The notes beneath the pieces are model-generated. The model made no database searches and had not been told where the DNA came from. It was given only the letters and a program-made list of their open reading frames with translations. Source: Eubacteriales bacterium (GTDB taxonomy: Bacteria > Bacillota > Clostridia > Oscillospirales > Acutalibacteraceae). Taken from it: a DNA stretch of 32,275 nt. Location: NCBI GenBank assembly GCA_029219885.1, contig JAQXUH010000020.1, positions 1 through 32,275 on the forward strand, read 5' to 3'. A program made the translations under genes and the position numbers. Shown here piece by piece: positions 5,364 through 8,161 of the stretch; within the stretch, counting starts at the first letter, position 1; every line of letters starts with the position of its first letter.

Positions 5364-5927
5364 ATGAAAAAATTACTTTCAATTGTTCTTTCAGCAATTA
5401 TGGCTGTAACTATGTGTACTGCGGCAGCTCTTCCTGCTTTTGCAGCAGACCCTGTTAAGAGCCCGACAGCAGCTACTCTCATTGACGGCAAGGTTACTCC
5501 TACCGTAAACGGTGAGAACAAGCAGGGCGTTATCTACGGCCCAAGCAGCACAAACTCAAACGAAGTAACTTTCAGATATGACGGCGAAGGCACTCTTATC
5601 GGTTGGGAAACAAACCTTCTTGACCTCGGCCTTGTTTCAGGTACTGACTTCACTTTGGTTAATAACGATGACGGCTCTATGACTGTTACATTCATTTCAC
5701 AGAATGCTATCGGCAAGTGGAACGACGGTATGGTTAAGGTTAACGCTCTTGTTGATTTCGACGAGGAAGAACCAACAGAGGAAGAGCCTGAGGAAGAAGA
5801 AACAACTAAGAATGAGTCTTCAAAATCTCCTTCAACCGGTGCTTCTACAGTAGCAGCAGCATCAATCGCAGCAGCAGGTGCAGGTATTGCAGTTCTCGCA
5901 GCTGTAAAGAAGAGAGACGCTGAATAA
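5364..5927 (+). CDS. Secreted, sortase-anchored surface protein with SPSTG-type sorting signal
   Basis: Signal peptide MKKLLSIVLSAIMAVTMCTAAALPAFAA; acidic linker EEEPTEEEPEEEE; C-terminal SPSTG - hydrophobic segment (ASTVAAASIAAAGAGIAVLAAV) - KKRDAE, i.e. a tripartite cell-wall sorting signal. Confidence 0.85.
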   Translation: MKKLLSIVLSAIMAVTMCTAAALPAFAADPVKSPTAATLIDGKVTPTVNGENKQGVIYGPSSTNSNEVTFRYDGEGTLIGWETNLLDLGLVSGTDFTLVNNDDGSMTVTFISQNAIGKWNDGMVKVNALVDFDEEEPTEEEPEEEETTKNESSKSPSTGASTVAAASIAAAGAGIAVLAAVKKRDAE

Positions 5928-6003: not shown

Positions 6004-6777
6004 TTGGCTGATAATTTCAACAGCACTGACGGCAGAGAAGATAAAAAGGACAGGCAGAACAATAAATCTAAAAAAATTCTCATATTTATTATTGTATTTA
6101 TTCTTGTTTTCGTTATTGTAATGGCTGTGCTGAATGTGTATAATAAAAGTGTGTCCACTCCACCTGAGGAAACAACTGTAACAACGCAGACCCAATCTCA
6201 GCAGGTGACGGTGGAAAATCCAATTGATTTTGATACACTTCAAAGCGGTAATGACGAGATTTATGCCTGGATAAAAATCGACGATACTAAGGTGGATTAT
6301 CCAATTGTGCAGAGCAAAAGCGACGACGCCTTTTATCTTCGCCACAAGGCAGAGGACAAATCTTGGTCCTCAAGCGGTGCAATTTATACAGAGCTTGCAA
6401 ATACAAAAACGTTTGGCGATTACGTAACAGTAATCTACGGCCACAACGGATACAGCGATTCAATGTTTACAACTCTTCACTATTTTGAGAAAGAGGAGTT
6501 TTTCAACAGCCATCCGTATTTTTATATTTACACACCTACGAAAAGGCTGAAGTATCAGGTGGTTTCGGCATTTAAGTATGATGACAGGCATATTCTCAAT
6601 TCCTTTGATTTTGCAAAGGAGGAGGTTTTGACTGATTTTCAGCAGATGATTCAGGACCCGGATTCCTCGCTGAAGAACGTGAGAACGGAGCTTGATACCG
6701 AAATCAACACAAAAAGCAGAATAGTAGTTCTCTCTACTTGTATCACAAATCAAAAAAGCAGCAGATATTTAGTATGA
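6004..6777 (+). CDS. Class B sortase (C-terminus apparently truncated by in-frame TGA)
   Basis: Track ORF starts at 5950 inside the terminator hairpin; more likely TTG 6004 (GGTGA 5 nt upstream): MADNFNSTDGRED.... N-terminal TM; catalytic His in YGHNGYSDSMF, Cys in VVLSTC, Arg in SSRYLV; DYPIVQ, IYTELAN motifs typical of SrtB. Confidence 0.88.
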   Translation: MADNFNSTDGREDKKDRQNNKSKKILIFIIVFILVFVIVMAVLNVYNKSVSTPPEETTVTTQTQSQQVTVENPIDFDTLQSGNDEIYAWIKIDDTKVDYPIVQSKSDDAFYLRHKAEDKSWSSSGAIYTELANTKTFGDYVTVIYGHNGYSDSMFTTLHYFEKEEFFNSHPYFYIYTPTKRLKYQVVSAFKYDDRHILNSFDFAKEEVLTDFQQMIQDPDSSLKNVRTELDTEINTKSRIVVLSTCITNQKSSRYLV

Positions 6778-6793
6778 GGAGTATTAGTGGAAA

Positions 6794-8161
6794 ATGAAAA
6801 AACCAATTGACCCCAATTTAGATAATTTAATAGATGACGCTCTTATGGCTGATGATATCAGCAACGCCGAGGTGCCTGCTGACGAGCCGAAAATTGAGGA
6901 TAATCATTTCACGGCGGAGAATTTCCCTGAGGGCACAAGCCGTTTGCAGAATGAATCAGAGGAAACTCAGCTGAGTATTGAAACAGTTGATAAGTCACAG
7001 CAAAGGCATCATCACCATCATCATTCATCAAATAGCTCATCAGCTCATCATTCGTCGGGAAGTTCGTCAGGTCATCATCATTCGTCGGGCAGCTCGTCAA
7101 GTCATCATCATTCGTCAAAGCACCATTCATCAAAGAAAAAGAAGAAAAAGCTTTCTACCTCAGCAAAAATTGCTATTGCAGTTTTGCTTATTCTGCTTTT
7201 TCTCATTCTTGCAATAGTTTTCACTGTGGTTTATCTTGAAAGCCACGGAAAAAGTGATATGAAAAACGTTTCGGAAGATACTTCCTACGAGGAGGTTATC
7301 GAGTACAAAGGTCAGTCCTATGTTTATAACGACGACGTTATTTCTATTGCATTTATCGGCGTTGACAAGCGTGATTTAGGACTTGAGGACGGCGTTGTAG
7401 GTACTGCGGGACAGGCTGACGCCGACGTGCTTTTTACAGTTAATACGCAGACGGGCAGAGTTAAGGTTATTGCCGTACCGAGAGATACAATGGTCGACGT
7501 TGACCTTTATTCCGAAAGCGGAATTTTCCTCAGAAGTGAGGAGCTTCAGCTGTGTCTCAGCTATGCTTACGGCGACGGCAAGGAGTCCTCGGCACAGAAT
7601 GTTACTACATCCTTGAGCCGTATTCTTTACGATGTTCCGGTGAATAAATATTTCGCTCTTGACCTTAACGGCATTGCTCCTATCAATGACGCTATCGGCG
7701 GTGTAACAGTAACATCACTTTACGATTTTGACGATATCGGAGTTAAAAAAGGCGACGAAATTCATCTTGAGGGCGACCTGACAGAAAAGTATGTCAGAAC
7801 GAGAGATTTAGATACAGTTAATGCGTCGCTTAACAGAACGGCACGTCAGGTACAGTATATTAAGGCCTTTGCCGGTCAGGTTGTGCCGGCAGTTATGCAG
7901 GATTTCAGCATAATCAGCAGTCTTTACAATACCGCCGCTGATTACAGCACTACTAATCTTTCTCTTTCAAATGCAACATACCTTGCGTCTTTGCTTATTT
8001 CAAAGGGAGTTACAGATTTTGAGACTGTTACTCTTGAGGGCGAAATGGTAGAAAGCGACAAGAAAGATTATGCCGACTTCGTTTATGCTGAATTTTATCC
8101 TGACGAGGATAAGCTTATGGAGGTTGTTCTTGACACCTTCTACACAAAACAGGAGAAATAA
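6794..8161 (+). CDS. LytR-CpsA-Psr (LCP) family protein with His/Ser/Lys-rich N-terminal cytoplasmic region
   Basis: TM helix (IAIAVLLILLFLILAIVFTVVYL) followed by the LCP domain (IAFIGVDKRD, DADVLFTVNTQTGRVKVIAVPRDTMVDV, INDAIGGVTV, KYVRTRDLD). Confidence 0.88.
   Translation: MKKPIDPNLDNLIDDALMADDISNAEVPADEPKIEDNHFTAENFPEGTSRLQNESEETQLSIETVDKSQQRHHHHHHSSNSSSAHHSSGSSSGHHHSSGSSSSHHHSSKHHSSKKKKKKLSTSAKIAIAVLLILLFLILAIVFTVVYLESHGKSDMKNVSEDTSYEEVIEYKGQSYVYNDDVISIAFIGVDKRDLGLEDGVVGTAGQADADVLFTVNTQTGRVKVIAVPRDTMVDVDLYSESGIFLRSEELQLCLSYAYGDGKESSAQNVTTSLSRILYDVPVNKYFALDLNGIAPINDAIGGVTVTSLYDFDDIGVKKGDEIHLEGDLTEKYVRTRDLDTVNASLNRTARQVQYIKAFAGQVVPAVMQDFSIISSLYNTAADYSTTNLSLSNATYLASLLISKGVTDFETVTLEGEMVESDKKDYADFVYAEFYPDEDKLMEVVLDTFYTKQEK
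7007..7150 (+). repeat. Low-complexity/tandem-repeat DNA encoding His/Ser-rich then poly-Lys tract
   Basis: (cat)n and tcg/tca runs with imperfect ~30-bp repeats (tcatcatcattcgtcgggcagctcgtcaag-like); encodes HHHHHHSSNSSSAHHSSGSSSGHHHSSGSSSSHHHSSKHHSSKKKKKK. Confidence 0.85.

Follow-up and report, generated by a model that had tools for sequence, protein, structure and literature searches.

The window analysed here, the whole stretch of 32,275 nucleotides, carries on its forward strand pcrA and a compact group of genes for a secreted protein, a class B sortase and an LCP family protein. The sortase frame meets an in-frame TGA just short of the end that its relatives share.

pcrA, in the window, + strand
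5364-5927, + strand: open reading frame for a secreted protein whose C-terminus carries a sorting signal (SPSTG, a hydrophobic stretch, then KKRDAE), the likely dedicated substrate
6004-6777, + strand: class B sortase frame as it stands, 257 amino acids from a putative TTG start to the TGA (PF04203, TIGR03064, motifs LSTC and RYLV)
6775-6777, + strand: in-frame TGA in place of a genus-conserved Cys codon, recognised by comparison with 72 relatives
6777-6781, + strand: AGGAG, which most relatives have as CGGAG, the Shine-Dalgarno sequence of the LCP gene, recognised from the Gly-codon bias
6778-6810, + strand: still-encoded C-terminus GVLVENEKTN with its own TGA, past the premature stop, aligning to an 11-residue tail in 71 of 72 orthologues
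6794-8161, + strand: LCP (LytR-CpsA-Psr) family gene (PF03816, 69.4 bits), sharing 17 nucleotides with the encoded sortase tail

A sortase with its catalytic residues in place

The protein has the membrane anchor, sortase domain and catalytic residues of a class B sortase: the His lies in YGHN, the Cys in LSTC and the Arg in RYLV. As it stands it scores 36.5 bits against PF04203 over 1-120, above the gathering cut-off, and the solved structures nearest to it all belong to class B, while the class B equivalog model TIGR03064 gives 147.8 bits against a cut-off of 153.75, the same with or without readthrough of the TGA. A single-sequence structure model had a mean pLDDT of 43, too poor to use.

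In 18 of the 19 genus loci examined, and also in the closest relative, G054, the gene immediately before that of the sortase encodes a protein with an (S/A)Px-TG sorting signal. This is probably a dedicated substrate-sortase pair conserved across the genus, in which a small secreted (S/A)Px-TG protein (5364-5927 in the window; L003-L031 elsewhere) and its sortase are followed by the LCP gene. The arrangement recalls C. difficile, where the substrate is likewise of the SPxTG type and models exist of SrtB with the peptides SPKTG and PPKTG.

A further sortase-fold protein is encoded elsewhere in this genome (G000:C79, L146:1228-1860). At 210 amino acids and 27.9 bits against PF04203, it seems by eye to be without the catalytic His and Cys (AAGCDETYF, LVLYSVFSEF), and is possibly a non-catalytic sortase-like protein.

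The encoded C-terminus beyond the stop

Re-reading of the window gave the same frame and stop position as the earlier note: the sortase reads ...CITNQKSSRYLV, then TGA at 6775-6777, and the same frame continues as GGA GTA TTA GTG GAA AAT GAA AAA ACC AAT TGA (6778-6810), or GVLVENEKTN followed by a stop. When the TGA is read through, the PF04203 match rises to 41.4 bits over 1-125, a gain of about 5 bits that carries the alignment to the end of the model.

Comparison within the genus establishes what these codons are. The search took in 80 genus genomes and found matches in 78, from which 72 orthologous C-termini could be read. In 71 of these, exactly 11 residues follow RYLV, and in the remaining one, 7; the continuation is real coding sequence because of this fixed length, and the proposal that the downstream codons represent a genuine sortase C-terminus is thereby upheld. 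The opposite prospect, that relatives might naturally end at RYLV, proved false. The tail consensus is C-G-V-L-(V/T)-K-D-E-K-T-(N/Y/D), and its first position is where the window has TGA. That position had been taken for the variable residue of the class B motif, which does not hold in this genus, since it is nearly invariant: Cys in 69 orthologues (57 TGC, 12 TGT), Ser in two (AGC) and Asn in one (AAC). None of the 72 same-genus orthologues has a stop there.

A private stop on one terminal branch

The stop is confined to a single lineage. In a tree of 72 sortases (the window sortase and 71 orthologues) the window sortase pairs with that of G054 with support of 100/92, and because G054 keeps TGC, the TGA is placed as a single substitution on one terminal branch. 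More broadly, the pattern R-Y-(L)-(V/I)-TGA-G-V-L occurred only in this genome among 398 of its family. Across 85,000 species the same scan gave 26 chance matches, none of them in a sortase frame, and a search of viral contigs found no homologues.

The remainder of the gene is undamaged. Its catalytic domain has 7 lineage-specific amino-acid changes compared with 13 on the G054 lineage, nucleotide changes are nearly equal (48 in this lineage versus 46 in that of G054), and pN/pS for the pair is 0.11. With the catalytic domain intact, the stop must be young, tolerated or not real. Across 136 gene pairs compared with the genome G041, no point stop other than the sortase TGA fell within an aligned gene; the remaining stops either preceded true starts or belonged to an indel.

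Two further in-frame stops were seen in passing. The LCP gene of G054 has a TGA in its His/Ser-rich linker (L003:2615-2617), about 75 bases from a contig end, which may reflect an error at the end of the assembled sequence or be a further premature UGA. In the genome under study, a ParB-like gene (G000:C104, L164:15548-16372) differs from its G041 counterpart by a short insertion, close to the C-terminal end, that contains an in-frame stop; the protein may simply finish naturally at another point.

In our view the TGA is probably a real, recent and private nonsense change that truncates the sortase, one of the origins that the earlier note had offered, and the one best supported by a single-genome stop that replaces a near-invariant Cys codon in an otherwise intact gene. 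A single-base substitution would have converted the conserved codon (TGC or TGT) to TGA in this species or strain, and ribosomes would normally terminate at 6775-6777. The mark of a nonsense allele, or early pseudogene, is a single-base stop, private to a lineage, in a frame that is conserved elsewhere, and here there is exactly one such stop, confined to one lineage, with recognisable codons downstream. The case differs from the typical one in that the stop falls within the final 4% of the gene, directly next to the Shine-Dalgarno sequence of the following one, so that polarity is probably small.

Consequences for the enzyme and its neighbour

In class B sortases, the catalytic Arg stands at the start of strand beta-8, a strand flanked by beta-7 and beta-6 that lines the face of the active site (PMC3019223; PMC5118464). 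The number of residues that follow this Arg sets the window sortase apart: it ends after three, whereas 71 of 72 same-genus orthologues continue for 14, and C. difficile SrtB for eight, from Arg217 to residue 225 (PMC5118464). Termination at the TGA would thus leave strand beta-8 incomplete, the lost 11 residues forming its second half, and with the strand cut in two the protein is probably destabilised or only weakly active. A nonsense allele late in a gene, seen in a single draft genome, is an ordinary finding in itself, but it offers a clean natural test of whether a class B sortase needs this half of strand beta-8.

The consequences for the LCP gene look milder. Its ATG at 6794 does lie inside the sortase extension, as had been noted, and the same 17-nucleotide overlap (6794-6810) is present in most relatives. 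Within the overlap region a conserved GGAG both encodes part of the sortase tail and serves as the LCP Shine-Dalgarno sequence. This dual use is visible in codon choice: the Gly codon at the site is GGA or GGG in 63 of 63 overlapping loci, compared with 148 purine-ending Gly codons among 517 in sortase bodies, a contrast to which we attach no p-value because the relatives are non-independent. Since the stretch past the TGA has two jobs, its conservation at the DNA level is uninformative as to whether the tail is translated here. The substitution itself changes CGGAG to AGGAG, with predicted pairing to CCUCC of -5.0 to -5.6 kcal/mol. The TGA sits immediately 5' of the Shine-Dalgarno sequence, and termination occurs 16 nucleotides before the LCP ATG. 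From this geometry, LCP translation was probably kept, or slightly strengthened, once the stop arose.

A possible error in the assembly

The most serious competitor to a genuine nonsense change is that the TGA arose in sequencing or assembly, or belongs to a minority strain, and that the species itself carries a sense codon here. The draft assembly comprises 105 contigs, is 85.8% complete and has a contamination estimate of 3.8%, the TGA is a lone event among the 136 gene pairs, and the coding frame is otherwise undamaged by decay, all of which would fit such an artefact. Nevertheless, the site lies well inside a 32-kb contig, away from its ends, and short-read assemblies seldom contain substitution errors in their consensus. 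We therefore regard an artefact of this kind as unlikely.

A diverged tRNA-Trp and the prospect of leaky decoding

A second competitor accepts the TGA and supposes that termination at it is incomplete. Here tRNA-Trp would sometimes read UGA in an unprogrammed manner, so that a minority of the sortase would be full-length, carrying Trp where relatives have Cys. A single tRNA-Trp (CCA) was detected in this genome (G000:C62:23077-23153, minus strand; L208:1501-1577); it adjoins tRNA-Met, as in the genus. The genus-standard tRNA-Trp is identical in 31 genus genomes, and the copy in this genome is strongly diverged from it, with a different D-arm. An A27.C43 mismatch reduces its anticodon stem to 4 bp, and its D-stem has U11-A24. 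Contamination was considered as the source of this odd gene, the contig showing few matches to part of G041, and was rejected: mnmA on the same contig is genus-typical, 87% identical to that of G054, and the contig is genuine.

Both features have been linked to UGA misreading. According to work published in 2026, tRNA-Trp with a 4-bp anticodon stem increases UGA readthrough in E. coli about 2.5-fold, and A24 is one of the known states that promote readthrough (PMC13092985). The sole detected tRNA-Trp combines the two, so that low-level reading of UGA as Trp is plausible; the absence of sortase decay is also what one would expect if function were retained in this way. Set against this, UGA is neither avoided as a stop, ending 50 of 265 open reading frames here (19%) compared with 83 of 673 in G041 (12%), nor found in frame within any other of the 136 gene pairs. 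G039 also has a tRNA-Trp with a 4-bp anticodon stem (T27.T43), yet its sortase keeps TGC, and tRNA-Trp of this kind is common in bacteria with the standard code (PMC13092985). A second, canonical tRNA-Trp may, moreover, be encoded in the 14% of the genome that is missing.

On balance, the diverged tRNA-Trp is a possible source of leakiness and not evidence of recoding, and we consider leaky reading of the sortase UGA to be quite improbable. Less probable again is the wider proposition that a naturally UGA-leaky tRNA-Trp makes premature UGAs partly tolerable in this organism, with the sortase surviving in part as a full-length Trp variant. Were it true, it would represent an early step toward UGA reassignment in a standard-code bacterium, and would tie drift in a tRNA to the toleration of premature UGA codons, a proposed route to change in the genetic code. 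The tRNA-Trp is a more interesting thread than the sortase.

The tRNA-Trp gene drew attention on a separate count. Exact 45-nucleotide copies of its 3' part (positions 32-76) are present in five genomes (G018:C12, G028:C24, G072:C5, G023:C90 and G038:C248), lying about 10-14 kb from the full gene in G018, G028 and G072, while further genomes have contig breaks within the gene. Taken together, the copies and the breaks look like the attachment site of a family of integrating elements.

Selenocysteine, programmed readthrough and code reassignment

A programmed event at the TGA is not supported. The earlier note had raised a readthrough or recoding site giving a short and a long sortase; such a site is expected to show a UGA conserved across lineages, and this one occurs in none of the 72 orthologues and in one genome among 398 of the family. 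Nor was it accompanied by selenocysteine machinery, RNA structure or another in-frame UGA.

Selenocysteine deserves mention, since selenoproteins are classically recognised by a UGA where homologues have a near-invariant Cys. The resemblance to a Cys/UGA selenoprotein pair ends with that substitution: there is here no second homologue with UGA and no SECIS-like fold, the RNA downstream of the UGA reaching -3.9 kcal/mol (z = -0.01 versus shuffles) and forming no stable hairpin. The machinery is missing as well. SelA scored over the cut-off in none of the 80 genus genomes, in a search that matched E. coli, SelB over the cut-off was not found in this genome, and the tRNA-Sec model matches examined, this genome's best included, were all tRNA-Ser. 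A selenoprotein sortase is thus effectively refuted, unless the portion of the genome absent from the assembly encodes a Sec system.

Reassignment of UGA to an amino acid throughout this organism, for which the single in-frame TGA is the sole pointer, is likewise refuted, as no tRNA with a UCA anticodon was found in the genome and the frames downstream of the 50 TGA-terminated long open reading frames are ordinary and short. Within the window, TGA had seemed scarce as a stop (2 of 24 genes), a hint of reassignment that dissolved once stop usage was counted over sampled stretches of the genome, where 330 kb with 265 open reading frames gave the 19% cited above.
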